Counted from the first letter of the stretch, positions 8,205 through 26,768 are shown. The stretch is 33,738 nt of DNA from Mucilaginibacter sp. (GCA_029237615.1 JAQNCM010000173.1:1-33738); one strand, 5' to 3'. A program made the numbers and translations. Notes: generated by a model from the sequence alone, not told the origin.

Positions 8205-8588
8205 TTATTGTTGGATAAAAAAATCCTTTTTGCCTTCGTCATCATAAACGCGGAGGGCTTTTTTTACTGTTTGATGGTTGGCGGTTACTTCAAGGGTATA
8301 ATCTCCAACTTCAAGCTGGGTAAGGATATAGCCTTTTTCCATTGTTTTAAATTTTGACATAACGTCTTTAAATATTGCCTGCCCATCCTGGTTGTAAACG
8401 ATCACTACGGCTTTGCTGGCCTCCGGATTGCTTACTTTAATATTGAGGCCTTTGTTAGATGGCAGTGAAGAAAAAGTAACCATTTCTTTTGATGCGCCGC
8501 CGTCTGCAACAACTTTTACAGGGCTTGCTGCGAAAACGCTTACACTTGCTAATAAGAATAAAGCGGTTAATTTGATTGATGTTTTCAT
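8205..8588 (-). CDS. Small secreted protein, function unknown
   Basis: 127 aa, clear signal peptide (MKTSIKLTALFLLASVSVFA), beta-rich sequence, own terminator. Confidence 0.8.
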   Translation of the reverse strand: MKTSIKLTALFLLASVSVFAASPVKVVADGGASKEMVTFSSLPSNKGLNIKVSNPEASKAVVIVYNQDGQAIFKDVMSKFKTMEKGYILTQLEVGDYTLEVTANHQTVKKALRVYDDEGKKDFFIQQ

Positions 8589-8679
8589 GATTTTTAAGTT
8601 TTAATATTTTTGTTTAATTTGTATTATTTTCTGTTTGACAATTCAAAGAAACAACAACTAAAAACACTAAAAAAATCAA

Positions 8680-8710
8680 ATAGACCATCACCTTTTAAGT
8701 ATAGACCAAC
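8680..8710. promoter_or_regulatory. Direct repeat ATAGACCAWC x2, 21-bp period (candidate LytTR-type operator)
   Basis: ATAGACCATC (8680-8689) and ATAGACCAAC (8701-8710), 92-122 bp upstream of the minus-strand start at 8588. Confidence 0.5.
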
Positions 8711-8843
8711 TGCGATAAACAGTCGGCAAACCCATATAATGTGCTCATAGTTAGCAAAATAGGTGTTTCATCGGGTATTAAAGGGGATTCATCGGCGAAA
8801 TCTTTGGGTTAGTCAGGTTGGGGAGCCATTGTCGCGCACGATC

Positions 8844-8932
8844 TGTCATCCCATAACGCAGTGAAGGATCTTCTGCGCCCGACCGGAAAGGCGAATACAT
8901 TTTAGCCAGAAGTTACTTCGCGATGCTATGAC
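8844..8932. repeat. REP-like interspersed palindrome, copy 2
   Basis: TGTCATCCCATAACGCAGTGAAGGATCTTCTGCG ... AGAAGTTACTTCGCGATGCTATGACA. Confidence 0.8.
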
Positions 8933-8966
8933 AATTTGCGGATTAGTATGACAGGTGAAGCAATAA

Positions 8967-10058
8967 TTATTTCAGCATAAATACCTCGAGAGCGATGTCA
9001 CCGTCATGTGCGCCGGGGCCCTGGCCAGGAGGAGGGCTCATCGGTGGTGGACCTTGCGTGGCCGGCCTGTTGCCACCCGGAGGAGGGCCACCCGGGCCAC
9101 CGGCACCACCGGCTATGTATATTTTATGATCAAGTACCGTCCCGCCCACGCCATTTCGCGCCACGTTCAGATCGGCCGTTTTGGTCCATTCGGTTGACGT
9201 AGCGGGGTCAAAATAATAAACATCCTTTTGTGAATGATTTGGTGTGGTAGCCGTAGCTCTTTCGCCGCCTATGTAATATATCTTATTGTCGAGATTGACG
9301 GCAGTACCGCCGCCTGTACCCATTGGCAGCTTTGCCGGCAGCGTGCTCCAGGTACCGGTTTTAAAATCATAGCAATCCACATCCAGCGCTGTCTGACTAA
9401 AAAAATTCAGCTTATTATCCGGGTCTCGGAAGCTGGTATTGCGGCCTCCTACCGCATATAACTTATCGCCTACAACAACCGCCATGCTGTGATCGCGAAT
9501 ATGCGGTGCATCAGGTAATGCCCTCCAGCTATTGGTAGCAGGGTTGTACTCATCAAACAAATTGTTGGTGCCGCTGCTATGGCCGTGAGTTATGCCACAC
9601 ACCAGATACAATTTGCCTTTATAAACGGCTTCCCCGGCACCCGCCCTGCGCCGATCTGCTGGTATTTCGGACAGCTTTGTCCAGGTATCCGTTTTGGTAT
9701 CATAACTATAAGCATTGGGCATGGGCGTTTGATTGGGGAAGCTACCATTATAAAAGGCATCCAGTACATAAATTTTTTCGCCCAGCGCAACTGCCTGCAA
9801 ATGGTGCATTACTACGGGTGCCATTGCCTTTTTAGTCCAGGCGTTGGTTTTGGGGTCATAAATCTCAACAGGCATAGCAGGGCCATCGCCGCCAATTAAA
9901 TATAGTTTCCCGTTTGCAGCTACCAGGCTGCATTCAGCGCGGGCATCCGCCTTGTTTTTTGTTTTAACAATATGCCATGTGCCATCGCCGCCGCCCTGCG
10001 CAAAAGCAATAGTGGTAACAAGCGCCGTTAAAACCAGGGTTATCAGTATCTTTTTCAT
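8967..10058 (-). CDS. Secreted kelch-repeat protein
   Basis: Repeated kelch blades (LYLIGGDGPAMPVEIYDPKTNAW, LYAVGGRN, IYYIGGERA, IYIAGGAGG); signal peptide from ATG 10058; Pro/Gly-rich tract near the C-terminus. Confidence 0.88.
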   Translation of the reverse strand: MKKILITLVLTALVTTIAFAQGGGDGTWHIVKTKNKADARAECSLVAANGKLYLIGGDGPAMPVEIYDPKTNAWTKKAMAPVVMHHLQAVALGEKIYVLDAFYNGSFPNQTPMPNAYSYDTKTDTWTKLSEIPADRRRAGAGEAVYKGKLYLVCGITHGHSSGTNNLFDEYNPATNSWRALPDAPHIRDHSMAVVVGDKLYAVGGRNTSFRDPDNKLNFFSQTALDVDCYDFKTGTWSTLPAKLPMGTGGGTAVNLDNKIYYIGGERATATTPNHSQKDVYYFDPATSTEWTKTADLNVARNGVGGTVLDHKIYIAGGAGGPGGPPPGGNRPATQGPPPMSPPPGQGPGAHDGDIALEVFMLK

Positions 10059-10086
10059 GACTTTGAATAAATTAATTACCACCTCT

Positions 10087-10170
10087 TGTCATCCTGAACA
10101 AAGTGAAGGGTCCTCTTCGCCTTTTTATTTAGGCTACTTATCTCTATAAGAAGATCTTTCTCTATCGCTC
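10087..10170. repeat. REP-like interspersed element, copy 3 (partial)
   Basis: TGTCATCCTGAACAAAGTGAAGGGTCCTCTTCGC ... AAGAAGATCTTTCTCTATCGCTCAAGAT. Confidence 0.6.
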
Positions 10171-10192
10171 AAGATTATAATTTGCAATATTC

Positions 10193-12787
10193 CTATCCTC
10201 CCACATTAACCTCCACCAAACTGCTGTTATCCACCCCATACTTTTTGGCAATGGCTTTTATGGTAGTACCCTTATTTACCTTAAATGGTTTTGAATATTT
10301 ATTGGCGTCAACAAATGAAGGAGTAGTTCCGTCGGTAGTATAAAAAATTATTGTACCAGCTTTAGGGTTGGCAATAGCAGCCATATTTCCTTTTATACTG
10401 ATAACAGGCTTTGCTACAATGTTTACATACTTTTCGGTACGGGCATCATGTATCACTCCCTGCCAGTTCATCCCGAAGCCAAAATCATAGGTATGGCCCG
10501 CGGCATCGGTATAACAGGTCATATCATGCGGAATGTCTTCGTCCTGCAATTCAACGGTGCGCATGTTGGCCGGCATCTGGAAAGGCAGCAAGCCCGATGG
10601 TTCATTAACGCCTGTTAAAATATCTAATATAGCCTGGTTTTCAACGCCGAAGCTGGCTACTATCGCGTTAGCATGCTTCTCAAATTCAGCAGGTATTGCC
10701 GGTTTGCTCAGGGTGATGGCAACTATAACAGGTTTACCTTTCATCGCTGTCTTAGTTTCTTCAATGGTCTTCAAATCGTTGTAGTTGGCGGCGGTAATGA
10801 CTTTGCCTTTGTAGCTGCGGTTGGTTACGCCGGGTTCAACCGGGTCGCCTGCCGCTATACTGTGTTCGCGGGCTTCAGCTGCGGTATAGCTGCCATATTG
10901 TAAGGTAATCGGCACATATCCATTGCCGCCTTTAGCCTTGTCATCCGCATCATACCCGGCACCACCACTGGGACTGCTTACAAAAACAATGGCATAATCG
11001 GCCTTTGCCGGGTCGTCGGTTACGGTGAAATACCTACTTATCAAATCTGCCTTTACTGCATCATCCCAATGCTCTTTTGACGGCGGGCCGAAAAAGCCTT
11101 TTATGGATGGGGTATATTTTTTAGGCAGATAAATGGTTTTGCCTTTTTGCAGCGGCAGTATGTTGCCCTGGTTTTTAAGCATCACAATGGATTTGAGTTG
11201 TGCATTGTAACCGGCGGTCATAAACTCCGGCTTTCCAACGGTGGCTTTTGTATGGTCAACATCCAGGTAAGGATTTTCAAAAAGCCCCACCCTAAAAATA
11301 TTGGTAAGCAGCCTTACAGCAGATTGCTCGAACCTTACCCGCATAAATGCTTCGCCATGCTCTTTAACGCCCATGTTGTACGCCTCAATCACCGGGCGGG
11401 CGTCATTGTTACCGCCAAACTGATCAACCCCTGCCATTAATATTTTGTAGTGACGCTCAGCCACAGTAGCGGTTTCCATCCCCCATGATTTCCCGGCGAA
11501 AATATCCGGTGTTTTGCCTTCATCAGCAGTAACGCCCCAATCAGTACAAACTACCCCGTCATAGCCATATTTGTTGCGCAGCAGGTCGGTAATCAAATAC
11601 TTGCTGTAACTATTACCTGCATTGCCCTGCTTATCCCTGTTGTACGAAATAGTGTAATATGGCATTACCGCCGAAACCATTTTGGTTGGACCTGATAACT
11701 TTAAAGCGCCATCAATAAACGATACCAGGTGTTCATCAAAGTTATTACCTGGATATACTGCAAACTTTCCATAGGCAAAATGAGCATCCCTGCCACCTTC
11801 CTCCGGGCCGCCGCCGGGCCAGTGTTTCATCATGGCATTTACGCTGTTGTAACCCCAGCCGTCTTTAATTTCGGCGCCGCCGGTGGAGGTTTGAAACCCA
11901 TCCACATACCCGCGCGCCATATCTGCGTCCAGTTGCGGGTCCTCGCCAAAGGTGCCGTTAATTCGTGCCCAGCGTGGTTCGGAGCCGAGGTCTATCTGCG
12001 GAGATAAAGCGGTAGCAATCCCTAAAGCCCTGTATTCTTGCGCGGCAATATTGCCGAATTGCTGTACCACCGCAGGATCAAATGTTGCAGCCAAACCTAA
12101 CTGATCAGGCCACTGCGATATGGCGCCACCAGCGCCGGCAGTATATTCAACCCCGGTGTTGGTGCTATGCCGGGGATCTGAGCTGTTATTAGCCGGGATC
12201 CCGAAGCCTGCCCCTTCTACCAATGCCTGTACATTATTATTCCAGCGGGCGGCAACTTCGGGGCTTTTTACCGAAGTGATAAGCACATGGCGCAGGTTAT
12301 CTTTTAATAAAAAATCTTTTTGCTGATCGGTTACCAGGGCGGCGTCTATCCCACCTTCGTTAAATTTCTTTCCATTATAAGTTCCCGCACCAAATGGGCC
12401 GCCTGACATAGCCGGAATCGCCTGGTGAGCGCTGTAAAGCATCAACCCGGCAATCTGGTCAATGGAAAGTTTGGATGCCAGGTCTTTCGCACGTTCACTT
12501 GCAGGCAGCCGCCAGTCTTCATATTTATCGAGTTTGCCGTTTTTGTTGAGGTCTTTAAAAGCCAAACCGTCAACTGTTAAAATTTTAACGCCCGAGTTTG
12601 AGGAATAGCCAAGCGTTGGCCCATTGGCATTTTTTACCAGGATAGTACCTGTGCTATCGGCCAGCTCTGCCAACCCGTTTTTGGTGATACCGACTGGTTT
12701 TCCGGCGGACATTCCAGCCAGCAACAACACGGTAAATGATGCGCCTGATAGCCACAGCATGACAGGAACGTAAAAATTTCTCTTCAT
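10193..12787 (-). CDS. Glycoside hydrolase family 3 (beta-glucosidase-like) with chitobiase-like C-terminal domain
   Basis: GH3 signatures (GVVCTDWGVTADEG, KHWPGGGPEEGGRDAH), DLNKNGKLDKYEDW calcium-loop-like motif, C-terminal GTIIFYTTDGTTPS. Confidence 0.93.
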   Translation of the reverse strand: MKRNFYVPVMLWLSGASFTVLLLAGMSAGKPVGITKNGLAELADSTGTILVKNANGPTLGYSSNSGVKILTVDGLAFKDLNKNGKLDKYEDWRLPASERAKDLASKLSIDQIAGLMLYSAHQAIPAMSGGPFGAGTYNGKKFNEGGIDAALVTDQQKDFLLKDNLRHVLITSVKSPEVAARWNNNVQALVEGAGFGIPANNSSDPRHSTNTGVEYTAGAGGAISQWPDQLGLAATFDPAVVQQFGNIAAQEYRALGIATALSPQIDLGSEPRWARINGTFGEDPQLDADMARGYVDGFQTSTGGAEIKDGWGYNSVNAMMKHWPGGGPEEGGRDAHFAYGKFAVYPGNNFDEHLVSFIDGALKLSGPTKMVSAVMPYYTISYNRDKQGNAGNSYSKYLITDLLRNKYGYDGVVCTDWGVTADEGKTPDIFAGKSWGMETATVAERHYKILMAGVDQFGGNNDARPVIEAYNMGVKEHGEAFMRVRFEQSAVRLLTNIFRVGLFENPYLDVDHTKATVGKPEFMTAGYNAQLKSIVMLKNQGNILPLQKGKTIYLPKKYTPSIKGFFGPPSKEHWDDAVKADLISRYFTVTDDPAKADYAIVFVSSPSGGAGYDADDKAKGGNGYVPITLQYGSYTAAEAREHSIAAGDPVEPGVTNRSYKGKVITAANYNDLKTIEETKTAMKGKPVIVAITLSKPAIPAEFEKHANAIVASFGVENQAILDILTGVNEPSGLLPFQMPANMRTVELQDEDIPHDMTCYTDAAGHTYDFGFGMNWQGVIHDARTEKYVNIVAKPVISIKGNMAAIANPKAGTIIFYTTDGTTPSFVDANKYSKPFKVNKGTTIKAIAKKYGVDNSSLVEVNVGG

Positions 12788-13009
12788 AATTGAACGCAGG
12801 ATTATGGTTAAATAATTGGTTATTTAAAATCTTGATAACAAACAATGAGGCCAGTTACGCCATTGTGTTTTAGTGACACATTAAAAGTAAATATAGTAAT
12901 AAATAATACAAATAGTAGTCGATAAGTAACCTGAGTAAATAGATAGAAACACCATTTTAACCGATGAGTAGATTTAAGATGGATAGTTTTTAGTAACATT
13001 GATAACACT

Positions 13010-13125
13010 TGTTACTACTGTTACCAAGTGTTACTAAGTAATACAATTCATTTATTGCCTTGTGCACGGAATATGGCGAATAGTCTACTCACTGCGACGG
13101 GCGCTGCGCTGGTTGACCTCTATTG
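13010..13125. repeat. Interspersed repeat element, copy B, with tandem TGTTACYAAG decamers
   Basis: TGTTACTAC-TGTTACCAAG-TGTTACTAAG (13010-13038), then CTACTCACTGCGACGGGCGCTGCGCTGGTTGACCTCTAT. Confidence 0.6.
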
Positions 13126-13192
13126 CGAACTTAGTTAGTAGAAGTATCCCTGTAACCCTTTTTGCCTTATATTTGAGTTGAGGAAATGCTGA

Positions 13193-13507
13193 ATGACTCA
13201 GATCAGAGAAATAAAGTGTCCGCATTGCGGGGAGTGGACCATGTGGCAGGGGGATATAGACGACAGATGCCTGTATTGCGGTGAGTTCCTTGAATCGAGG
13301 CGTTTCTCGCGCGAGGTTGAAAGAAAAATACGCAATGAGGTACTAAAAGAAAATGACTACCTTTTTATAAAACCGGAAGACGGTCCGTTTAAGCGCCTGC
13401 TTAAACGGATGTTAAACTCGCTGCGCTGGCTGGCATTTTACTTGCAAATTGTGTTTTTCATTTTCGTAACGCTGATACTGGTATTAATAAGCTTAGTTCC
13501 CGGTTAA
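13193..13507 (+). CDS. Small zinc-ribbon plus C-terminal transmembrane protein, unknown function
   Basis: CPHCGEW...CLYCGEF zinc ribbon, charged linker, C-terminal hydrophobic helix. Confidence 0.75.
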   Translation: MTQIREIKCPHCGEWTMWQGDIDDRCLYCGEFLESRRFSREVERKIRNEVLKENDYLFIKPEDGPFKRLLKRMLNSLRWLAFYLQIVFFIFVTLILVLISLVPG

Positions 13508-13864
13508 ATGAAAACATTACTTAACCCCTGGTTTATTGCCGGTTGTATTATATGGATAGTGGTGATAACAACGAGAAAACTTGGTCACCCGCTTCCTTAT
13601 GTTAATGGCTACATAAACGATGCCTTTGCTGTACCTGTAATTGCCAACCTGGGGCTTTGGTTTCAAAGAGTGGTTATTATTAAAAGCAATTATTACGTGC
13701 TGGCACCCCGCCATGTGATTTTTATTGTGCTTTACCTTGCTATTTTTTTTGAAGGGCTGCTGCCCTGGTTATCAAAAAACTATACAGCCGACTGGATCGA
13801 TGTACTGCTGTATGTTATCGGAGGCTTGTTCTTTTACAGGGTGATGAATGTGGTTAGAGATTAG
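13508..13864 (+). CDS. Small multi-pass membrane protein, unknown function
   Basis: Starts immediately after the stop of the preceding ORF; several hydrophobic segments. Confidence 0.7.
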   Translation: MKTLLNPWFIAGCIIWIVVITTRKLGHPLPYVNGYINDAFAVPVIANLGLWFQRVVIIKSNYYVLAPRHVIFIVLYLAIFFEGLLPWLSKNYTADWIDVLLYVIGGLFFYRVMNVVRD

Positions 13865-13928
13865 TTTGAAAATGGAAAGCACAGAAAAACAGCAAGAAAT
13901 GCAAAATCTTTCGCCTTTTACCTGCTCC

Positions 13929-14339
13929 TTAAGCAAATGTTCTTATCTGCATACCTGCTTCCAGTAGTTTTGACACGGGGCAGGCTTTGGCTATCTGCAT
14001 CAGCCGTTCCCGCTGTTCGTCGGTTACTGACGTTAAAAACTTAAGGTTACGGTCTATCACCATAATTTTTATATCGTCTTTAACTTCATGGTACATGTTT
14101 AGGGCAACAGCGATTTCAGGGATATCCCACCCCTTCCTGTCAATATACATGCGCAGCGTTGCCACCGTACAAGAGCCTAGTGATGATAACAATAAAGTAT
14201 ACGGATCCGGGCCAAGCGCCTTTCCGCCAGACTTTTCTGGTTCGTCAACTATAAATTTGCCGCCCCGCCACTCCACGGTGCATAAATATTTCACCATGCC
14301 GATAGTGGCAATAACCGGTTCTTCAAATAAATATTCCAT
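13929..14339 (-). CDS. OsmC family protein
   Basis: GPDPYTLLLSSLGSCTVATLRMYIDRKGW and CPVSKLLEAG motifs with both catalytic-type cysteines. Confidence 0.92.
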   Translation of the reverse strand: MEYLFEEPVIATIGMVKYLCTVEWRGGKFIVDEPEKSGGKALGPDPYTLLLSSLGSCTVATLRMYIDRKGWDIPEIAVALNMYHEVKDDIKIMVIDRNLKFLTSVTDEQRERLMQIAKACPVSKLLEAGMQIRTFA

Positions 14340-14429
14340 ACAATAATATTGCGTAAATAAATTTTAAGTTTTTTGCCTCACCTGTCCTCTCCAAAGGAGA
14401 GGTGTTCAGAAGCTTTATAGTGGATAATA

Positions 14430-14711
14430 TTAAAACAGCACATCAGCAAAATCAGGGGTCATGTTTATTATCTTTTTGGCGTAAGGGCAAAGCGGCAATA
14501 TCTTCATCTGGTGTTCGCGGGCATACTCAACGCCTGCTTTTACCAGCTGCTTGCCCAGCCCTTTGCCTTCATAAGCTTCATCCACCTCTGTGTGAACAAT
14601 GATCATCTTTCCAGGTCCCGAAAAAATATATTGCATCAGGGCTATCTCCTTGCCGTCATCTTCCATAAAAAATATGCCGCGTTTGCCGTCGTTTTTGTTT
14701 TGTATTTCCAT
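14430..14711 (-). CDS. Small GNAT family N-acetyltransferase (COG2388-like)
   Basis: IIVHTEVDEAYEGKGLGKQLVKAGVEYAREHQMKILPLCPYAKKII. Confidence 0.9.
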   Translation of the reverse strand: MEIQNKNDGKRGIFFMEDDGKEIALMQYIFSGPGKMIIVHTEVDEAYEGKGLGKQLVKAGVEYAREHQMKILPLCPYAKKIINMTPDFADVLF

Positions 14712-14764
14712 ATTTCTCTTTACGGTTCAAACCAACAGAAAATATTTCTTAAATCCATCCTCTT

Positions 14765-14876
14765 ATTGCATAGAGGGGGCGACGAGCGCAGCGAATGCCG
14801 GGTGAGTAGGGTATATGCCTTGCTAAACGGCATTACAAATGTGAACCCATTTTAAATTTGGTAACACTTGGTAACA
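14765..14876. repeat. Interspersed repeat element, copy A, inverted relative to copy B
   Basis: CATAGAGGGGGCGACGAGCGCAGCGAATGCCGGGTGAGTAGGG ... TTTGGTAACA-CTTGGTAACA (14857-14876). Confidence 0.6.
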
Positions 14877-14910
14877 GAATACCGTTACTAAACTGTTCAT
14901 AAAAACCATC

Positions 14911-16317
14911 CTATCTCCAGCCGCCACCCAGTGCACGGTAAAGATTTACTATTGCCTGCAGTTGTTGCAGGTGGTCGTTAACACCGTTAAGGCGGGCTGC
15001 CAGCAGACTTTGTTCTGAGGTCAGTACATCAGTATAATTAGTTGCGGAACTGTAGCGCAGCAGTTGTTGGGTATAATCAACAGCTTTTGTTAAAGCTGCT
15101 ATTTGTTTGCTTCTGGAACTGTCTTTTTCCATGGCAGTTTGATGGGCGTATAATGCGTTTGATACTTCGCTTCCAGCTACCAGCAACGTTTGCTGAAAGT
15201 TGTTAAGTGCTTCCGTTTGTTGAGCCTGTGCTATTTTTAACCTTGCCTTGTTAATGCCCTGGTTAAAAATGGGTTGTGTTAACCCGGCGGCGATATTGTA
15301 AAAAATGGAATTAATAAAAAAGTCCTTCAGCGTTAAATTTGAGAACCCTCCCGATGCAGTTATCGTGAAAGCCGGATAAAAATAGGTATGCGCCGTATTG
15401 GTGTTTTCAAATGCCGCCCTAAAAGCATATTCCGCCTGTTGCACATCGGGCCTGTTTTTTAATAATTGTGCCGGGATGCCGGTTTGCAGGTTGTTAGCTG
15501 GCTGCTGGTCGTCCAGTTTGGTTCGTACTACCGCACCGGGCGGGCGGGCAAGCAGCAGATTAATAATATTCTCCGTTTCGCGGATATTCCGTTTTAAATC
15601 AGGAATCACTACCTCGGCCGCATAGCGGTTTGCCTCGCTTTGTACCACGGCAGCACCGTTAACTACATCGGCTTCCTTTAGGTCCTTCATGGTTTCCATC
15701 TCTTTTAACCGCGATTTTACAGTTTGTTTCGTTATTTCAAGTTGTTTATCAAGTGCCAGTAAAGTGTAATAGTAATTAGCAATATCGGCAATCAGCTGCG
15801 TTTGTACGGCCCTTTTGGCGGCATCTGTCTGCAATAAATTGGCAAATGCTGCTTTTTTAGCACTCTTTAATTTCCCCCATACGTCTGCCTCCCACGAGGT
15901 ACCCAAACCAAGCTGATAAGTGGTGGTTAAAGTGCTGATGTTTATGCCAGCAGGAAAATTTAAGCTTGCCGCCGATTGCTCCGACCGGGTAATGCCCGCA
16001 CTTCCGCTTAATGACGGGTAAAACACAGCTTTAGTTTGTCCGAGCACAGCCTGTGCTTCTGCTATTTTTTGTATAGCATTTTTTAAATTCAGATTTTTGG
16101 ATAAACCTTCACGTATCAGGCCTTTCAAAGCGGTATCAGCAAATAAGGTTTCCCAGGGCATGCTTGCAATAGTTGTAGTGTCGGCTGTGCTTTGTCCGCG
16201 GTAAAGGTTGGCGTTGTTAAGCAGGGGCTGACTGTAGGGCCTTGTTACCTTACATGACAGTGAAGCTCCTATTAATACAAGGATTAAACAACTATATTTT
16301 AAATAGGATTTGCTCAT
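14911..16317 (-). CDS. TolC/NodT-type outer-membrane efflux lipoprotein
   Basis: N-terminal lipobox-like ASLSC, NLKNAIQKIAEAQA, TSWEADVWGKLKSAKKAA, LLKNRPDVQQAEY. Confidence 0.93.
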   Translation of the reverse strand: MSKSYLKYSCLILVLIGASLSCKVTRPYSQPLLNNANLYRGQSTADTTTIASMPWETLFADTALKGLIREGLSKNLNLKNAIQKIAEAQAVLGQTKAVFYPSLSGSAGITRSEQSAASLNFPAGINISTLTTTYQLGLGTSWEADVWGKLKSAKKAAFANLLQTDAAKRAVQTQLIADIANYYYTLLALDKQLEITKQTVKSRLKEMETMKDLKEADVVNGAAVVQSEANRYAAEVVIPDLKRNIRETENIINLLLARPPGAVVRTKLDDQQPANNLQTGIPAQLLKNRPDVQQAEYAFRAAFENTNTAHTYFYPAFTITASGGFSNLTLKDFFINSIFYNIAAGLTQPIFNQGINKARLKIAQAQQTEALNNFQQTLLVAGSEVSNALYAHQTAMEKDSSRSKQIAALTKAVDYTQQLLRYSSATNYTDVLTSEQSLLAARLNGVNDHLQQLQAIVNLYRALGGGWR

Positions 16318-16334
16318 TATCTTTTTTGTAAAAT

Positions 16335-19300
16335 TTAAACCGCCGTTGTAATAGCATCATCCTCATCCTCATCGTGCCCACGTTTGCTGCGTATTTTTTC
16401 CTGCAGGGTTTGAAAAATAATAAACAGGATCGGTATTGCAAAAACACCCACAACGGTACCTATAAACATGCCGCCAACAGCACCGGTACCAATTGAGCGG
16501 TTACCAAAAGCACCCGCACCGGTTGAGAACATTAAGGGCATTATACCAAAAATAAATGCAAATGAGGTCATTAAAATGGGTCGTAAACGGGCTTCGGCTC
16601 CTTCAATGGCGGCTTGCACAATATTCATCCCGGCACGCCTGCGGTCCAGTGCAAACTCAACAATTAAAATTGCATTTTTAGAGAGCAGGCCGATAAGCAT
16701 GATAAGGGAGATCTGCACATAAATATTGCTGTCTATACCGGCTATTTTCGCAAAAAGGTAAGTGCCTGTTAAACCGATGGGCAATGATAACAACACAGCG
16801 AAGGGTAAAATATAGCTTTCATATTGCGCGCTCAGTAAAAAATAAACAAATACCAGGCAAAGGATAAATATGTAAAGAGATTGTGTGCCAGATGAAATTT
16901 CTTCGCGTGTTAATCCCGAAAAATCGTAGCCGTAGCCGGGCGGCAGTTTCTCTGCAGCTACAGCTTTTATCGCTTTAATGGCGTCTCCGGTGCTGTAGCC
17001 TGGCTTTGGTAAGCCTGTAACCGATACGGCTGTAAATAAGTTAAAACGCTCTATCGATTCTGGCCCGAATACTTTGGTGAGTGTGATAAACTCGGTAATG
17101 GGCGCCATGGTGCCGTTTGTATTGCGTACAAAAATTTTATTTAAGCCCGTTGGATTAGCACGGTAATCATAATCGGCCAGAACCATTACCCTGTACTGCT
17201 TGCCAAATAGGATAAAATTAGAGGCATACAGGCCACCATAATAACCCTGCAAAGTATTTACTACTGAATTTACCGATATGCCCGCCTCTTTACATTTAGC
17301 TACATTTACATCCACCTGGTACTGTGGGAAATTTGGATTGAAGGAAGTATTGGTATTCTGAATTTCGGGGCGTTTATTTAATGCCGCTAAAAAGTCGCCG
17401 GTGACTTTAAAAAGTTCTGATGGGGTGTGGCCGCCTTTATCCTGCAGCTGGAATTGAAAACCGCTGCCGGCACCAAAACCCTGTATGGTCGGGGGCGAGA
17501 AAAAGAAAATGTTAGCCTCGTGAATACCGCCTATTTTTGAATAAAGCTGGCCGATAACGCTTTGGATATTGTCATTTTTCCTTTGATCCCATGTTTTTAG
17601 CTTGACGATCACCATGCCGTAGGCGCTTCCGCTGCCCGCTAAAAAATTAAACCCGACTATCTGCAACGATTTTCGTACCGACGGCAGTGCGCGGGCTATG
17701 CTGTCAATCTTTTTGGTGATAGCGGCGGTACGCTGCATGCCCGATGCCGGTGGCAAACTGATACTGGCGAAAATTGTTCCCTGGTCTTCGCTGGGAACAA
17801 AGCTGGATGGCGTGGTTTTAATAAGAATGCCTAAGGACAGTGCGAATAGGGCTATTACAATTACTACTATCCATTTTTTATTGGCCAAAAAGCCAACAGA
17901 GCGTTTATAGTTATTAACCACTGTAAAAAAAGCAGAATCAAAGCGGGTATAGAACCAGTTAAACCAGCGTTTCTTTTTATGTTCTTCGGAGTGCGGCTTC
18001 AAAAATATGGCACATAAAGCCGGACTCAAGGTTAAGGCGTTTACTGCTGAAAGCAGGATTGCTACCGCCAGCGTGATGCCAAACTGTTTATAAAATACGC
18101 CTGTGGATCCCGTAATAAACGTAACCGGCAAAAATACGGCCGACATAACAAGGGTGATGGAGATGATGGCTCCTGCTATTTCGCTCATCGCGTCTACTGA
18201 AGCTTTGCGGGCCGATTTATAGCCTTTATCCAGTTTGGCATGCACAGCCTCAACTACCACAATGGCGTCATCCACAACAATCCCTATTGCAAGCACCATT
18301 GCAAATAGCGTGAGCAGGTTTATGGTAAAACCAAACAGACTTAAAAAAAAGAAGGTACCTACAATTGCCACCGGTACTGCAATAGCCGGAATAAGGGTTG
18401 AACGGAAATCCTGCAGAAAAATAAATACAACAATAAACACCAATATGAAGGCCTCAACCAGTGTGCTGATCACTTTTTCGATAGAGGCGTTAAGATATTC
18501 ATTGGCATCAACCATGTAGGTGATCTTTAATCCTTTCGGGAAAGACGCCGAAGCAGTTTCGAGAATGCTTTTTGTTTGGTTTATTACATCGCGGGCATTG
18601 GATCCTGATGCCTGGGTAATGCCCACACCAATGGAGGGCAGGCCATTTGTTTTCAGGTCGACAGAGTAATCCATTGCGCCCAGCTCGATGCGTGCTACAT
18701 CGTTTAAGTGTAATAACTGGCCTTTACCTACTGATTTTAAAATGATGTTCCCAAATTCAGCAGTGTTTTTTAGCCTCCCGGTATATCTTATTACATATTG
18801 AAACGACTCATCGCTGTTTTCTCCGAACTTGCCTGGCGCTGCCTCAATATTCTGTTCATTTAAGGCATTGGTTATGTCATCAGGAATGAGTCCATAACGC
18901 GACATTACATCCGGCTTTAACCATATCCGCATGGAGTAATCCCTCGATGTGAAGATCTGCGTATTACCTACGCCGTTTACACGCTGAATGGCCGGCACCA
19001 GGTTTATCTTTGCATAATTTTGCAGAAAGGTTGCATCAAAAGTTTTGTTATCGCTCGAGAGGACAAATATAAGCAGGTTGCTGTTTTGGCTTTTAGTTAC
19101 TGTAACACCTGCCTGGGTAACTACCTGTGGCAAAAGACTGGTAGCACGTGACACGCGGTTTTGAACGTTTACAGCAGCAAGGTCGGGATTGGTACCTACC
19201 TTAAAAAAAATTGAAATAGATGCCGACCCATCATTACCTGCAGATGAGGTTATGTAGGTCATGTTCTCAACCCCGTTTATCTGTTCTTCCAGGGGGATGA

Positions 19301-19484
19301 TCACACTCTTAAGCACCACATCGGCATTGGCACCACTATAATTAGCAGATACCTGCACGGTGGGCGGTGCTATATCCGGGTATTGTGAAATGGGAAGGTT
19401 TACCAACCCGATCACTCCCAGGATAACAAGCAATACCGAGATGACAGTGGATAATACAGGCCGCTCTATGAATCTTTTTAACAT
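16335..19484 (-). CDS. Efflux RND transporter permease (HAE1/AcrB type)
   Basis: 1049 aa; MLKRFIERPVLSTVISVLLVILGVIGLVNLPISQYPDIAPPTVQV, GIVVDDAIVVVEAV. Confidence 0.96.
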   Translation of the reverse strand: MLKRFIERPVLSTVISVLLVILGVIGLVNLPISQYPDIAPPTVQVSANYSGANADVVLKSVIIPLEEQINGVENMTYITSSAGNDGSASISIFFKVGTNPDLAAVNVQNRVSRATSLLPQVVTQAGVTVTKSQNSNLLIFVLSSDNKTFDATFLQNYAKINLVPAIQRVNGVGNTQIFTSRDYSMRIWLKPDVMSRYGLIPDDITNALNEQNIEAAPGKFGENSDESFQYVIRYTGRLKNTAEFGNIILKSVGKGQLLHLNDVARIELGAMDYSVDLKTNGLPSIGVGITQASGSNARDVINQTKSILETASASFPKGLKITYMVDANEYLNASIEKVISTLVEAFILVFIVVFIFLQDFRSTLIPAIAVPVAIVGTFFFLSLFGFTINLLTLFAMVLAIGIVVDDAIVVVEAVHAKLDKGYKSARKASVDAMSEIAGAIISITLVMSAVFLPVTFITGSTGVFYKQFGITLAVAILLSAVNALTLSPALCAIFLKPHSEEHKKKRWFNWFYTRFDSAFFTVVNNYKRSVGFLANKKWIVVIVIALFALSLGILIKTTPSSFVPSEDQGTIFASISLPPASGMQRTAAITKKIDSIARALPSVRKSLQIVGFNFLAGSGSAYGMVIVKLKTWDQRKNDNIQSVIGQLYSKIGGIHEANIFFFSPPTIQGFGAGSGFQFQLQDKGGHTPSELFKVTGDFLAALNKRPEIQNTNTSFNPNFPQYQVDVNVAKCKEAGISVNSVVNTLQGYYGGLYASNFILFGKQYRVMVLADYDYRANPTGLNKIFVRNTNGTMAPITEFITLTKVFGPESIERFNLFTAVSVTGLPKPGYSTGDAIKAIKAVAAEKLPPGYGYDFSGLTREEISSGTQSLYIFILCLVFVYFLLSAQYESYILPFAVLLSLPIGLTGTYLFAKIAGIDSNIYVQISLIMLIGLLSKNAILIVEFALDRRRAGMNIVQAAIEGAEARLRPILMTSFAFIFGIMPLMFSTGAGAFGNRSIGTGAVGGMFIGTVVGVFAIPILFIIFQTLQEKIRSKRGHDEDEDDAITTAV

Positions 19485-19574
19485 ATTTTTTTGTGTGAGA
19501 GATGTAATACTTTACGCTCCCATTATTGAGATTTCCTTTCCTGCCGACGCACTTGCGCCTTAGTTATCTTGAAT

Positions 19575-20789
19575 TTAATTAAGTCCTTTATAAAGGGTTT
19601 CACCATTAACTTCAACTGGCTTAATTTCGGTTCCGTCTTTTAAATTATTTGCACCTTCGGCAATTATCCTGTCACCGTTTTGCAGCCCTCCTGTTATAAT
19701 GTAAAACTGGCCGGGCGTACTCTCCATAACGGTAATGGCAACATTTTTTATCTTGTTGTGGCTGTCAACCAGGTAAGCAAACCGCTTGTCCTGCAACTCA
19801 TAGGTAACATTCTGTGGAACTGCTATTGCACTTTTAATAGTCTTGGGTATTCTTATAATTGCGCTGCTGCCGCTACGTAACAGCCCCCTTGGATTAGCAA
19901 AAGCCGCTCTGAAGTTGGCAGAACCGGTACTGGTGTTGATGAGACCGTTCACGGTTTCAACCTTTCCCTTGTACGCATAGGCGGTACCATCAGACAGTAC
20001 AAGCGTAACCTGCGGGATGCTATTTAATTTGGCACGAAAGCTTGTATTGCTGCTGTCACGACTAAAACCGAGTAGCTGCTTTTCGTTCATTGCAAAATAG
20101 GCGTAAACAGTAGCTGTATTATAAACGGTAGTTAAGGGATCAGTGGTAGTGCTGGTAACCAGGCTGCCTAACTTATAAGGTAGTGAGCCTATCACGCCGT
20201 TAACGGGGCTTACAATGGTGGTATAGCCTAAATTCATCCGTGCATTTTCCAGTGAGGCTTTAGCCTGTGCCAGGGCAGCCTGCTTTGATTGCAGTGTATA
20301 CTGGGCCGATTCAAGCTCATAACGGCTGATGATTTCTTTTTCTACCAGCGGTTTAACTTTATTAACCTGTAACGTGGCAGTATTGATATCGGCTTCTGCA
20401 GTTTTTATTCCTGCTTCGGCCGTGCGCACTTCCTGTTCATATTGCGGCGCTTTTATCTTGAATAATAACTGCCCCTTGTTAACCAGCGAACCTTCATCAA
20501 CATAAATTTTTTCTACATAGCCATCCACCTTCGGTCTTATTTCGATATTCTGAAGACCCTGGATACTTGCCGGATAATCAGTTGTTAAGGTTACCTGCCG
20601 GGGATGCAAAGTAACCACCCTATAAGTTGGTATAGCCTGTGCATTTCCACCATTTTCTTGCTGGCCTTTGCTGCCGCACGAATACAGAAATAGCAAGCCT
20701 GGCAGCGCCAGAACAATTATTTTTTTGTTAAGACTGTAGCAGCCTCGCAAACAATAACAGTAGCTGTGTAAAATTTTATTGATGTTCAT
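19575..20789 (-). CDS. Efflux RND transporter periplasmic adaptor (MFP/AcrA-like)
   Basis: Lipoprotein-type N-terminus, IRPKVDGYVEKIYVDEGSLVNKGQLLFKI, coiled coil, TIVSPVNGVIG. Confidence 0.95.
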   Translation of the reverse strand: MNINKILHSYCYCLRGCYSLNKKIIVLALPGLLFLYSCGSKGQQENGGNAQAIPTYRVVTLHPRQVTLTTDYPASIQGLQNIEIRPKVDGYVEKIYVDEGSLVNKGQLLFKIKAPQYEQEVRTAEAGIKTAEADINTATLQVNKVKPLVEKEIISRYELESAQYTLQSKQAALAQAKASLENARMNLGYTTIVSPVNGVIGSLPYKLGSLVTSTTTDPLTTVYNTATVYAYFAMNEKQLLGFSRDSSNTSFRAKLNSIPQVTLVLSDGTAYAYKGKVETVNGLINTSTGSANFRAAFANPRGLLRSGSSAIIRIPKTIKSAIAVPQNVTYELQDKRFAYLVDSHNKIKNVAITVMESTPGQFYIITGGLQNGDRIIAEGANNLKDGTEIKPVEVNGETLYKGLN

Positions 20790-21034
20790 TAAAAATTGTG
20801 ATAGTTTAATCAGGATAACCGGTTGGCAAAGATAATAGCATTTATGATATCGTTCGATGATTTTCGGGTATTCATTTAATAAATTATGATCACGTAAATT
20901 AATTATTTATATCGGGCTGTAGCAATCATCCTAATCAGTTGTAGTTTATTTCCAACGTTTTGCCTTTACTTATTAAGTCTCCGCTAAATGTATTTTGTTA
21001 CAGCAACCTGATAAATTTTTTATTGTGCCGCAGC

Positions 21035-21787
21035 TTATACCCACCTGCTCAAAAACTGGCTGAAGCTTTCTTTATACTGGTCGCCTACGCTGATATTGAT
21101 CTTGCCAATCTGCAGCGCGTTACGGGTAATGGAATTAATCTTATCCAACGAAACAATAAAGGAGCGGTGTACACGCATAAATCGTTTAGGAGGCAGTTTT
21201 TCTTCAAGCGATTTGAGGCTGGTAAGGGATAGTATGGGTTTTTCAGCGCTTTTGAGCCAAACTTTCACATAATCCTTTAAGCCCTCAATATAAAGGATAT
21301 CATTTAACGCAATACGTACCAAATGGTATTCCACTTTTAAAAAGAGGTATTCGTCTTCTATACGCTCTTCGGGAGCAGCAGCAGTGGCCGTTGCCGGGGT
21401 GTTTGATTTTTCGAGCAGTTCACAATAGGCCAATGCTTTATTGGCTGCATGCAAAAACTCTTCGTAGTTAAAGGGTTTCAGCAAATAGTCCAGCGCATCC
21501 ACGCGGTAGCCCTCCAGCGCAAATTGGTTATACGCAGTTGTAAAAATGATACGGGGTTTGTTGCTTTTACTATTGTCCAGCACACGTGCGAGCTCGATAC
21601 CGTTCAAATCGGGCATCTGGATGTCTAAAAACAATACATCTATTTTTTGCGAATGGATGGCTCTTAACGCTTCTACCGCACTGGAGAACTTGCCCGCAAG
21701 CTTTAAAAACGGTGTTTGTTCAATAAACGAAGCCACCAGGCCGAGTGCCAGCGGCTCATCATCAACAGCTATGCAATTTAATATCAT
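21035..21787 (-). CDS. LytTR-type response regulator
   Basis: REC (CIAVDDEPLA, DVLFLDIQMPDLNG) plus LytTR DNA-binding domain (FMRVHRSFIVSLDKI). Confidence 0.95.
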   Translation of the reverse strand: MILNCIAVDDEPLALGLVASFIEQTPFLKLAGKFSSAVEALRAIHSQKIDVLFLDIQMPDLNGIELARVLDNSKSNKPRIIFTTAYNQFALEGYRVDALDYLLKPFNYEEFLHAANKALAYCELLEKSNTPATATAAAPEERIEDEYLFLKVEYHLVRIALNDILYIEGLKDYVKVWLKSAEKPILSLTSLKSLEEKLPPKRFMRVHRSFIVSLDKINSITRNALQIGKINISVGDQYKESFSQFLSRWV

Positions 21788-22866
21788 GACAGATCGAGCG
21801 TTAAGTGAATCGAATAAATATTTTCAGATGTATTATCATCGATCAGCAAAGTATACTTGCCGGGATATAAAAGGTCGAGCCTGCGGCGGGTATTGTTAAG
21901 CCCTATGCCGCTGCCTTCCTCTAAGTTATTACTTTGTTCTTTAATAATACTATTTACTACAATTAATTCTACCACATTATTTTTTTGTTCAACCACTATG
22001 TTGATGTGACTCTGTTGGGTGGCGCTTACGCCATGTTTAAAAGCATTTTCTATAAAGGGTAAGAATAACATTGGCGCAATAGCCATTTCCCTAAGGGCTG
22101 TAGGTGAGTCAAATTCGATTTTAACCACATCAGTTAACCGCAGCTGCATCAGGCTGATATAGTCTTTTATAAAAGCAATCTCCTGGCTTAACCGGGTAGT
22201 GGCATTCTGCGTATCATACAACACATAACGCATCATTCTTGATAACTGATGGATGGCTTTACGGGAGGTATTGGCGTTTACGAGCGTAAGCGCATAAATA
22301 TTATTAAGGGTATTAAAAAAGAAATGAGGGTTAATCTGTGCCTTCAGAAATGACAGTTCAGAGGTCACCCGGTCCTGCTCCATCTCCTGGTGTACCTGTT
22401 TATCGTGCTGCCATTTTTGTATAGTGGTGATACTTGTGCTGATACCCATAACCAGGGCGCTGGTACCAATAAGGGACGCCAGTATAAAGGGATCCCAATG
22501 ATGACCGTGCGGGCGGTGCTTTTGAGGCACACCTTTGTGAAAAGCAGCATCCATCAACTGGTGCAGGTTTAGCCAATCGTCAACATAGCTGCTAAATATT
22601 GCAATAACAGCCACTACGCTAACTGCTGCCAATAAATAAATACCATTTTGGTTTTTTAATAAAAGTTTGGGTACCAGTACAAACGAATTCAAATAAAACG
22701 CAACTACCAGCAGGATGAATGTGATGCCATTCTTTACCCATAACTGGTAAGGTATTGCGATGTTTAATGTTAACGGCTGAAAGAAAAACAGCATGCCAAG
22801 AACGGCCCATATCAATACATGTATAATTATGGTTACCAGCTTACTTTTGGATTTTGTAATGATCAT
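21784..22866 (-). CDS. LytS-type sensor histidine kinase
   Basis: Four N-terminal TM helices, LKAQINPHFFFNTLNNIYAL, PMLFLPFIENAFKHG; 4-bp ATGA overlap with the LytTR gene. Confidence 0.95.
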   Translation of the reverse strand: MIITKSKSKLVTIIIHVLIWAVLGMLFFFQPLTLNIAIPYQLWVKNGITFILLVVAFYLNSFVLVPKLLLKNQNGIYLLAAVSVVAVIAIFSSYVDDWLNLHQLMDAAFHKGVPQKHRPHGHHWDPFILASLIGTSALVMGISTSITTIQKWQHDKQVHQEMEQDRVTSELSFLKAQINPHFFFNTLNNIYALTLVNANTSRKAIHQLSRMMRYVLYDTQNATTRLSQEIAFIKDYISLMQLRLTDVVKIEFDSPTALREMAIAPMLFLPFIENAFKHGVSATQQSHINIVVEQKNNVVELIVVNSIIKEQSNNLEEGSGIGLNNTRRRLDLLYPGKYTLLIDDNTSENIYSIHLTLDLS

Positions 22867-23004
22867 TTCATTGGTTATTAAATTAAGTTAAACAGGTGAT
22901 GGCTGTTATTGCAGATATATCTGCAAATGAATTAAATATTCACGTAATCAACTACTTAACTGAATGGCAATATTACAAAGGTAATTCTCATAAAGCCAAT
23001 AATA

Positions 23005-23035
23005 ATCTATCAACAGGCAAAACTTACCGACCAGC
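23005..23035. promoter_or_regulatory. Degenerate 21-bp-period direct repeat in the LytS upstream region
   Basis: ATCTATCAAC (23005-23014) and ACCGACCAGC (23026-23035); each 7/10 to ATAGACCAAC. Confidence 0.35.
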
Positions 23036-23111
23036 GGCTAATAATAAACTTTAAAACATTGCTGTTACTAAATGCGTGTTAAAACACTGTTTTTGTAGTG
23101 CAAATAGCGGT

Positions 23112-23142
23112 TTTTATCTACTTGTTTAACGCGTTGGTCTAT
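23112..23142. promoter_or_regulatory. GTTGGTCTAT half-site plus degenerate partner, 21-bp period
   Basis: TTTTATCTAC (23112-23121) and GTTGGTCTAT (23133-23142); the latter is the exact reverse complement of 8701-8710. Confidence 0.45.
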
Positions 23143-23199
23143 TCTGTTTTTTGGTATGCTGGGTTTGGTATTGTTTTGCTATATCTAAATTAAATAAGC

Positions 23200-26052
23200 A
23201 TGAAATTTTTATACCTTCTTATAGTTGTAACCTTCCTCATCGGACTAAAAGCGGATGCACAAACCGCTCGTGATGTGCATGGCACGATAATGGACTCAAC
23301 AAAGGTCACCCTACCGGGTTCAACCGTTAAAATTTTAACAGGCTCCGACAGCACTACTACCATAACCGACGCCAAAGGCGCTTTTGTATTCCCCGCGATT
23401 AAAACAAACCAGTTCAGTTTGGTTATACAGTCAATCGGCTTTGAGCCGATAAAACGTCATTTTGTAATGGACAATACTAATCAGCCGGTTTTTTTAAGAC
23501 CGGTAATTTTAAAAGCTTCTACCACTATGCTGAACACGGTGGTGATATCAGACGTATTACCGGTTAAAATTAAAGAGGATACCGTGGAATTTAATACCGC
23601 TGCTTATAAGGTACGAGATGGTGCACCTATTGAAGATGTGATAAAAAAGATTCCGGGCGCCGATGTAGATGCCAGTGGTAACATCACCTTCCAGGGAAAA
23701 AGCGTTACCAAAGTAAGGGTTAACGGAAAAGACTTTTTTGGTGGTGATTTAAAAACTGCCACACAAAACTTGCCTGCCGATGCTGTCCAAAATGTGCAGA
23801 TGGTAAATGATTATGGCGACCAGGCCAACCTAACCGGAATAAAAACCGGCGAACCCGAAACGATATTAAACATCAACATAAAACCAAGCCGTAACCACGG
23901 GTATTTTGGCCAGGCCAGCGTAGGCGACGGACGGGATGCAATACCACAAGTAGCTGGGAACAAAGATGCAAACCGGTTTTTGGCACAAGCTAACCTTTTT
24001 AATTTTGAGGGCAGCAGGCAGATTGCCGTGTTAGGTAACCTTAACAACACCAACACCAATCTGTTCAATTTTGGTGGTGGCGGCGGCGGCGGCAGAACGG
24101 GCGGCGGTGGCCCTCCGGGAGGCAATAATGTTAGCAATGGCATTACTACTGCGCGATCCATCGGCTTTAATTACCGTGACTCATGGGGGAAAAAGATCAC
24201 TGTTTATGGCAGCTATAGCTTTTCTGACAACACGGTGAATACCGTCAGCTCAACGCTTCAAAATAATATTTCGCTTACCAGTCCCAGTACAAACACACAA
24301 AGCAACACTGAAACCGATCAGAAAAAGAACCACAGGTTTACCTTTAATATGGAGTACAAGCCTGATACCGTCAATTATTTAAAAATAAGTCCCTCGTATT
24401 CGTACGCCGGGCTAAACACCAACCAATTTGGAGCTAACTTACTTGCCAGGGATACGACTACACTCTCAAACTATAACTATAAAACGCTGAGTCATTCATC
24501 GGCACCAAATTATGGTATAAATGTACTTTATAACCACAGATTTAATGGACATGGGCGCAATTTCAGTGTAAACGTTGGCACCGGCCGCTCCACAAGCAAT
24601 CAGTATCAAAATCCTGTTTATACATATATTTCTGGTGCTGCCAACGCACCTTTAGATCAGTTTATTAATACCAACAGTCGTACCGATACCGTGGGAGCAT
24701 ATTTCTCCTACATTGAGCCCATATCCAGGCGCTCCTACATTGAGGTGAACTACAACTATAAACATTCTTACACCACAGCTGATAAACAAACAGATACCTT
24801 AACTTCAAACGGCCAGGTTAATAATTACGCGTTGCTTAGTAACCAGTATAATTTCACTTTTATCACCAATCGTTTTGGTTTAAACTACCGTTTTGTTGAA
24901 AAGAAATACAATTATGTTTTAGGAGTAACCGCACAACCTTCGTTATTGGAAGGCAGCTCGCCAATAAGCGGTGCAACACGTATGCAGGCGTTTAACTTTT
25001 CGCCAAACGCGCATTTCATTTATAACTTTTCGCGCACCCAGTCGTTGAGCGCCAACTATAGCGGCAGCAGCAATCAACCAACTTATTCAGAATTGCAGCC
25101 GGTTACCGATTTTTCAAACGCATCCTATCCAATAACCGGTAACCCCGATCTGAAACCGGAGTATAACAACAGTTTCTCCATACGGTACAATAAGTTTAAT
25201 TTCGAGTCGGGCAACGTGTTCTTCAGTAATTTCTCGTTTGTGCAAACAGATAATAAAATAGTATCTAATACTACCAATTATCCCCGCGTTTATACACCGA
25301 ACAGCAAATTTGCAGGTACTGTGGCCACCAATTATTTAAATGCTCCCGGGTATTATTCAGCCCAGGCTTTTTATGTATTTGCCAAACCCTGGGACAAACG
25401 TAAGTACAACCTGTTTTTTGTAGGAAACCTATCTTACAATAATAACATATCCTACATCACCAATGTGGATGCAGCGACTTATGATATGACAACCGAGAAA
25501 AACATTGCCAAAACCATTGTGGCCTCGCAGAGTGTACGTTTCAGGGTTGATATTACCGATGTTATTGATGCCCAGTTAAGTACTACTTATAGTGTTAACT
25601 CATCCAAAAACTCAATCAACCAACCGGGTATCCAGGATAATTTCAGAACATTGGTATTGGGAGTAAATGGTAAAAACTACGTGTGGAAAGATTGGACCTA
25701 CAGCTATGATTACTCAAAAACACTTTACTATGGCTACAAGGGAGCAACCAACCCCAATATATTTAATACTTACATAGAGCGCAGGTTTTTAAAGGGCAAC
25801 ATGGCAACGCTGCGTTTATCGCTAATGGATGCATTTAACCAAAACACCGGTTATACCAGCACTCAAAACGGTAACTTTATTACACAAACAAATGTGAACA
25901 GGTTAGGGCGTTATTACCTGCTCACCTTTACATACCGTTTCCAGAAGATGGCCGGTAAAGCGCCAAATATGGGGCCAGGTGGCTTTGGAGGTCGTCCGCC
26001 AGGTGGTGGTCCGGGTGGCCCGCCTCCGGGTGGTGGCCCGTCGGCCGATTAA
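23200..26052 (+). CDS. Large outer-membrane beta-barrel protein with N-terminal carboxypeptidase-regulatory-like domain (TonB-receptor-like)
   Basis: Signal peptide, DVHGTIMDSTKVTLPGSTVKI domain, plug-like VIKKIPGADVDASGNITFQGKSVTKVRVNGKDFFGGD, long beta-barrel; Gly/Pro-rich internal and C-terminal tracts. Confidence 0.9.
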   Translation: MKFLYLLIVVTFLIGLKADAQTARDVHGTIMDSTKVTLPGSTVKILTGSDSTTTITDAKGAFVFPAIKTNQFSLVIQSIGFEPIKRHFVMDNTNQPVFLRPVILKASTTMLNTVVISDVLPVKIKEDTVEFNTAAYKVRDGAPIEDVIKKIPGADVDASGNITFQGKSVTKVRVNGKDFFGGDLKTATQNLPADAVQNVQMVNDYGDQANLTGIKTGEPETILNINIKPSRNHGYFGQASVGDGRDAIPQVAGNKDANRFLAQANLFNFEGSRQIAVLGNLNNTNTNLFNFGGGGGGGRTGGGGPPGGNNVSNGITTARSIGFNYRDSWGKKITVYGSYSFSDNTVNTVSSTLQNNISLTSPSTNTQSNTETDQKKNHRFTFNMEYKPDTVNYLKISPSYSYAGLNTNQFGANLLARDTTTLSNYNYKTLSHSSAPNYGINVLYNHRFNGHGRNFSVNVGTGRSTSNQYQNPVYTYISGAANAPLDQFINTNSRTDTVGAYFSYIEPISRRSYIEVNYNYKHSYTTADKQTDTLTSNGQVNNYALLSNQYNFTFITNRFGLNYRFVEKKYNYVLGVTAQPSLLEGSSPISGATRMQAFNFSPNAHFIYNFSRTQSLSANYSGSSNQPTYSELQPVTDFSNASYPITGNPDLKPEYNNSFSIRYNKFNFESGNVFFSNFSFVQTDNKIVSNTTNYPRVYTPNSKFAGTVATNYLNAPGYYSAQAFYVFAKPWDKRKYNLFFVGNLSYNNNISYITNVDAATYDMTTEKNIAKTIVASQSVRFRVDITDVIDAQLSTTYSVNSSKNSINQPGIQDNFRTLVLGVNGKNYVWKDWTYSYDYSKTLYYGYKGATNPNIFNTYIERRFLKGNMATLRLSLMDAFNQNTGYTSTQNGNFITQTNVNRLGRYYLLTFTYRFQKMAGKAPNMGPGGFGGRPPGGGPGGPPPGGGPSAD

Positions 26053-26300: not shown

Positions 26301-26768
26301 TTACCCGTTAGTAACAGCCAGTGTTTCGAACGCAATTTCGAGTGATTCTATGGCTATTTCGTTGCTTTCAGACATGAGGTCGGTACCTGTCATTTTTATC
26401 AGGCAGGCATTACCCAGTGTCCATGACATGGTTCGGGCACCGTTTTCATCCAGCAATTGAATAACTACGTTTTCTTTATATTGGGGAGAAGAAGGGCCCA
26501 TGAATTTTAAATGCCAATTAGAAAATTTCGCTTCATTAACAAAAATTCCTTTACGCATTGTTACATTCCCCGTTTTGGCCATAACGGGGAATTTTTTTGT
26601 TGATAATAATTGGTTCCCTGCCTGCCGGTACTCATTAACCGGCGATTCAGTTTCTAATCCTGAGACTTCCTGAAATGAGGCAGGGCTGTCCAGTGAACTG
26701 AATAATACTTTAAAATAAAACTTGGGCAGTGGCCAGGAATTATCTTGTGTTAGTGCTTTATTCGGCAT
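26301..26768 (-). CDS. Phage-tail/contractile injection system tube-like protein (gp19/TIGR02241-like), orphan
   Basis: WPLPKFYFKVLFSS...ASFQEVSGLETESPVNEYRQAGNQLLSTKKFPVMAKTGNVTMRKGIF...SLEIAFETL. Confidence 0.88.
   Translation of the reverse strand: MPNKALTQDNSWPLPKFYFKVLFSSLDSPASFQEVSGLETESPVNEYRQAGNQLLSTKKFPVMAKTGNVTMRKGIFVNEAKFSNWHLKFMGPSSPQYKENVVIQLLDENGARTMSWTLGNACLIKMTGTDLMSESNEIAIESLEIAFETLAVTNG

Follow-up and report, generated by a model that had tools for sequence, protein, structure and literature searches.

Regulators with a LytTR DNA-binding domain recognise 9-bp direct repeats, mostly separated by a 12-bp gap and located just upstream of the -35 element (PMC6193735), and the motif FhRhHRS has been described as important for binding by one of them, AgrA (PMC4227749). 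The open-access literature describes LytTR operators for Firmicutes and, for operons of Bacteroides that resemble LytTR regulatory systems (LRS), predicted repeats (PMC6193735). We found in it no paper on Mucilaginibacter LytTR proteins and no binding site for a kinase-linked LytTR regulator in Bacteroidota, subscription papers being outside the search. Here, we analysed a stretch of 33,738 nt of Mucilaginibacter sp. (GCA_029237615.1 JAQNCM010000173.1:1-33738), called the window below, which belongs to a 5.27-Mb genome that is 88% complete and assembled in 708 contigs. It harbours a lytS-lytTR gene pair and, like known LytTR operators, direct repeats of about 9 bp with a 21-bp period. They are located upstream of lytS, of the divergent gene of an outer-membrane beta-barrel protein (the barrel gene) and of the gene of a small, putatively secreted protein (the small gene). 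The best explanation, to which we give a probability of about 0.88, is that these repeats are the operator of the LytS-LytTR system (21035-22866), which would autoregulate its own expression and activate the barrel and small secreted-protein genes.

Direct repeats at three promoters

The half-sites are as follows, with the basis of each in brackets.

8701..8710, minus strand: small-gene half-site 1, GTTGGTCTAT (sequence; conserved in relatives)
8680..8689, minus strand: small-gene half-site 2, GATGGTCTAT (sequence; conserved in relatives; genome scan)
8722..8731, minus strand: small-gene third, distal half-site, GTTTGCCGAC (offset scoring with the untrained matrix)
23112..23121, plus strand: barrel half-site 1, weak, TTTTATCTAC (sequence; relatives)
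23133..23142, plus strand: barrel half-site 2, GTTGGTCTAT (sequence; relatives; genome scan)
23026..23035, minus strand: lytS half-site 1, variant, GCTGGTCGGT (sequence; relatives)
23005..23014, minus strand: lytS half-site 2, variant, GTTGATAGAT (sequence; relatives)

Six of these half-sites, the 21-bp period within each of the three pairs and the common orientation of the pairs relative to their downstream genes had been reported in the initial annotation, and all are borne out by the sequence. The distance of 58 bp that it gave for the barrel gene needs correction to 57 nt, counted from the end of the proximal half-site to the ATG at 23200. The third small-gene half-site, which that annotation did not contain, lies exactly 21 bp upstream of the known pair. 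A matrix trained on nothing but barrel and lytS half-sites, applied to 27 small-gene promoters, placed the offset of this third half-site 3rd of 60, behind the two known half-sites. The third half-site is conserved in relatives, and the small gene thus seems to have an array of three sites.

Raw counts of the motif are at the chance level. With up to two mismatches, GTTGGTCTAT occurs 26 times in the window for 27.8 expected, without enrichment, and in the genome a paired 7+7 pattern allowing 2 mismatches gives 33 hits, versus 37 for the reversed control. Such numbers are what one would expect if the strings were chance matches, or a general A/T-rich feature of Bacteroidota promoters with no dedicated regulator. 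However, these counts are uninformative, because the operator is longer than a 10-mer and the chance background is large. The sole perfect GGTCTAT pair of the genome is that at 8680-8707.

Against a chance origin, core sequences and spacing are conserved genus-wide. Relatives were collected within the genus by the 127-aa small protein and by LytS. All three promoters have retained the repeats in about 30 Mucilaginibacter genomes, always at a period of 21 bp. When 28 small-gene and 29 lytS/barrel intergenic regions were aligned without seeding, the conservation peaks coincided with the half-sites, and conservation was weaker between and around them. Forty-two operators of the small-gene and lytS-divergent classes align free of gaps, again with an invariant 21-bp period. 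The small-gene consensus is TTTGCCGAt-N12-TTgGTCTAT-N12-TGGTCTAT, and the gene divergent from lytS (the barrel gene, or in some genomes the small gene) is preceded by two GTCTAT cores at a distance of 21 bp and, after them, GTTTTTT. In each of the three promoter classes, the self-similarity of the conservation profile is greatest at lag 21.

The classes also predict one another and are specific to particular genes. Using matrices built from the promoters of relatives only, the window genome being excluded, the small-gene matrix finds the barrel operator of the window as its second-best match (31.0 bits; best score in 60 shuffled windows, 14.7 bits), and the barrel matrix finds the small-gene operator (32.4 bits; 14.8 bits in 60 shuffled windows). 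We also built a sequence-only profile, R1, from the 42 operators, which include the two window sites. The initial annotation had put forward a random distribution of the motif in a genome scan as an outcome that would speak against it, but with this full operator model only two strong sites appear in the 5.27-Mb genome (E-values 1.2e-8 and 8.3e-7; next 0.78), namely the small-gene and barrel operators of the window. Among 150 genomes of the genus, 130 have sites at E <=0.05, merely 1-6 per genome. The repeats thus clearly exceed chance by their evolutionary conservation, not by raw counts. On this comparative evidence, we regard the chance or general-promoter explanation as already refuted by the genome scan, the cross-class prediction, the genus scan and the classes of target genes, and its residual probability as negligible.

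The lytS site and promoter geometry

The lytS site, whose consensus in relatives is CCGTCGGTAAA...gATAGATT, has the core GTCGGT / rTAGAT or GGCGAT and is a clear variant of the other two. Its conservation profile is self-similar solely at lag 21. The half-site matrix of the other two classes ranks the lytS pair 2nd of the 898 intergenic positions of the window, with a median rank of 4 over 30 genomes, in which about 898 positions and orientations were ranked. A separate profile of lytS-type promoters, R2, has its only clear match in the genome at the lytS promoter (E-value 5.4e-17; next 0.02). The orientation initially proposed for this site holds, since the forward reading scores better in most genomes; the reversed reading (reverse complement AATCTAT...TTTACCGA) was accordingly rejected, its half-site matrix score being worse in most of them. 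The lytS promoter thus holds a conserved variant operator, through which the system may autoregulate.

Promoters of Bacteroidota have -33 and -7 elements, TTG and TAnnTTTG, and we named the elements found in the window after these.

8644..8651, minus strand: small-gene -7-type element, TTTCTTTG (starts exactly 28 nt past half-site 2)
23171..23178, plus strand: barrel -7-type element, TTGTTTTG (starts exactly 28 nt past half-site 2)
22997..22999, minus strand: lytS -33-type TTG (near-invariant in the lytS promoter alignment)
22968..22975, minus strand: lytS -7-type element, TAATATTG (nearly invariant; 29 nt downstream of half-site 2)

Of the promoters in genomes outside the training set, all 28 of the barrel gene and 24 of the 26 of the small gene have T[TA]nnTTTG starting exactly 28 nt past the proximal half-site. 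The layout of the lytS promoter is TTG-N21-TAATATTG. The repeats abut the -33 region or sit just upstream of it, as in LytTR-type operators.

Repeat length, period and position fit LytTR operators, so that activation together with autoregulation appears to be the best reading. Half-sites 21 bp apart, two in number or three at the small gene, are spaced by two helical turns, and LytTR domains would therefore bind the same face of the helix. With the proximal half-site 28-29 nt before the -7 element, a LytTR protein bound there could contact RNA polymerase. Phosphorylation of LytTR by LytS would strongly activate the barrel and small secreted-protein genes, and phosphorylated LytTR would act on the lytSR operon through the weaker variant site, as feedback. 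We infer that LytTR is the binding protein, that its effect is activation and not repression, and that it is controlled by phosphorylation.

LytTR might instead be a repressor, or the lytS site might be repressive and provide negative feedback, with the other two sites activating. In favour of this idea, the weaker lytS variant lies just upstream of a near-consensus promoter that may fire unaided. In contrast, the -7 element comes 28-29 nt after the end of half-site 2, which places half-site 2 near the position used by LytTR activators (PMC6193735), and both strong targets have poor -7 elements (TTnnTTTG). We therefore consider repression unlikely.

The LytS-LytTR pair and its candidate targets

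The two regulatory genes are the following.

21035..21787, minus strand: LytTR response regulator, receiver and LytTR DNA-binding domains (Pfam)
21784..22866, minus strand: LytS-type histidine kinase of 360 aa, N-terminal membrane segments and His_kinase domain (Pfam, alignment)

The Pfam matches are strong (His_kinase, E-value 4.9e-25; Response_reg, 7.7e-22; LytTR, 2.7e-17), the NPHF motif of LytS is intact, and FMRVHRS in LytTR matches the FhRhHRS motif. The two genes overlap, and the pair is conserved in relatives. Of note, the periplasmic loop of LytS (about residues 110-130) keeps a G-P-P-K/R-type motif across relatives, and the tail of the barrel protein is Gly/Pro-rich; contact between the two is possible. 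Metal sensing through the His-rich loop of the window LytS was considered and rejected, as the histidines are not conserved.

The synteny barrel(-)-lytS(+)-lytTR(+) is conserved in the genus, the barrel gene being divergent to lytS in most Mucilaginibacter relatives; the named loci of this type are nearly all from Mucilaginibacter, with one from a 'Bacteroidetes' metagenome-assembled genome. The neighbour divergent from lytS is the small gene in four genomes (G004, G006, G021 and G044), and in G004 the small gene and the barrel gene are each preceded by sites of their own. The operator (E <=1e-3) is present in 49 of 50 untrained genomes with a LytTR orthologue versus 8 of 34 without, although the genomes are related and Fisher p-values from this comparison are inflated.

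A second possibility is that the operator is real and serves a different regulator, such as a paralogous LytTR encoded elsewhere, the adjacent LytTR being a mere neighbour or sharing the sites by cross-talk. The source genome does hold several other LytTR-type regulators. Sister paralogues of about 57% identity adjoin similar sites in several genomes, so that more than one LytTR may use the operator. In a few genomes the operator is present but no orthologue was detected (e.g. G015, G051, G059, G110, G131, G165, G167, G168), several of these being incomplete assemblies, with the contigs of G051 and G059 ending near lytS. These observations weigh against our preferred assignment, as do the clear unlikeness of the lytS site, which required a model of its own, and the fact that we infer activation from the position of the sites only. 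Nevertheless, the co-occurrence just described, the presence of operators flanking lytSR in nearly all relatives and the variant site in the lytS promoter make another regulator improbable, even more so than repression. Spirosoma and other Sphingobacteriales/Cytophagales likewise have related sites before the lytS-divergent gene. It follows from these and from the paralogue sites that the operator is that of a LytTR subfamily, within which paralogues may cross-talk.

Control of lytSR, the barrel gene and the small gene by a LytTR operator, as the initial annotation had proposed, thus gains strong comparative support from the conservation of the repeats, their geometry and the lytS-lytTR linkage, and further from the co-occurrence with LytTR orthologues and a genome-wide regulon of few sites. 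The operator, its spacing and geometry, its targets and its link with LytTR are shown by the sequence comparisons.

In 60 untrained target regions, picked from the best-scoring sites and in part from genomes close to the training ones, 54 of 63 sites precede orthologues of the barrel gene (28) or of the small gene (26), mostly 54-62 nt and 82-91 nt from the start codon, respectively. The remaining sites include those of four secreted proteins of 200 aa, members of a single family, and of two enzymes labelled GH3-type by eye from their sequences. In several genomes, genes of this family (L300, L301, L316, L328; MKT.ILTIAIA...) have the operator 82-85 nt from the start; the two GH3-type glycoside hydrolase genes (L329, L332) are from other genomes. 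In the window itself, the GH3 gene (10193-12787) was rejected as a target, its upstream region scoring negative, as was the RND efflux operon (14911-20789), which has no operator upstream and does not adjoin lytTR in most named relatives.

Both target proteins are predicted to be envelope or secreted products.

8205..8588, minus strand: small secreted protein of 127 aa, DUF3244 / Por_Secre_tail-like beta-sandwich (sub-threshold Pfam, AlphaFold, fold match)
23200..26052, plus strand: outer-membrane beta-barrel protein of 950 aa, OMP_b-brl_3 (Pfam)

The N-terminus of the small protein resembles a signal peptide, and the Pfam matches of the protein fall below the gathering cut-off. Its AlphaFold model is a beta-sandwich with a mean predicted local distance difference test score of 80, and about 90 or higher for residues 40-127; the best fold match in the PDB is 4g5a, a DUF3244 structure (E-value 4.7e-4). 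The barrel protein has an N-terminal carboxypeptidase-regulatory-like domain in addition to its Gly/Pro-rich tail, and a sequence search of the PDB found no relative of it.

It is tempting to speculate, though we hold it as doubtful, that Sphingobacteriales/Cytophagales possess in this system a conserved switch dedicated to surface remodelling, with a graded operator code. One LytS-LytTR pair would control almost only the barrel protein and its paired small beta-sandwich protein, and occasionally GH3 or other secreted genes. The order of response would depend on whether a promoter has three half-sites (small gene), two (barrel gene) or a weak variant pair (lytSR), and the barrel or its ligand might possibly be sensed through the Pro/basic periplasmic loop of LytS.

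Elsewhere in the window, a response-regulator receiver is fused to a pyridine-nucleotide-disulphide oxidoreductase (4754-6415, minus strand), and its gene adjoins that of a histidine kinase with a cNMP-binding-like domain (6504-7907). A stand-alone T4 gp19-like tail tube gene is located at 26301-26768 (minus strand; Pfam E-value 4.8e-33), and no second tail gene was noted among the listed open reading frames of the window. Two tandem duplicated Omp85-superfamily proteins of about 411 aa are encoded at 28317-29555 and 29665-30900, with TTG starts called for both.

Comparison with described LytTR systems

LytTR regulators are numerous in Bacteroidota, with several in the source genome alone. With a conserved operator of fixed geometry, three annotations that stood apart become one testable regulon, which puts the barrel in the same context as the small DUF3244-like protein. 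The operator matrix should serve to annotate LytTR regulons across the genus and probably also in related orders.

By eye, yCCGTCTAT resembles the published half-sites ACCGCTTAT / ACCGACTAT, and the half-sites of the window are looser. In the HdrR/BrsR systems of Streptococcus mutans, which are LRS (PMC6193735), two 9-bp direct repeats with a 12-bp gap, hence a 21-bp period, similarly lie just upstream of the -35 element, their sequence (e.g. ACCGCTTAT) resembles, by eye, yCCGTCTAT, and autoregulation is combined with a few structural targets. However, an LRS has a membrane inhibitor and no kinase, whereas here a LytS histidine kinase is paired with a regulator that has a receiver domain. The promoter is also of the Bacteroidota -33/-7 type, the targets are outer-membrane or secreted proteins, and one promoter has a third half-site.

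The AgrA-P2/P3 system of Staphylococcus aureus (PMC4227749) is likewise governed by a two-component LytTR regulator, with direct repeats at its own operon and at a divergent promoter. The FhRhHRS DNA-contact motif is shared. Unlike in the Agr system, we saw no peptide-signal genes, the half-site sequence is different, and the targets belong to a Gram-negative envelope.

The LRS-like operons of B. thetaiotaomicron and B. ovatus (PMC6193735, Table 3) are from the same phylum and have predicted repeats upstream of a TATCTTTG-type promoter. Nevertheless, these are 11-bp repeats of another sequence with an 11-bp gap, hence a 22-bp period, and the LytTR regulators are membrane-embedded and devoid of a kinase. 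The kind of switch is already known; the regulon, which is well supported here, was previously undescribed.

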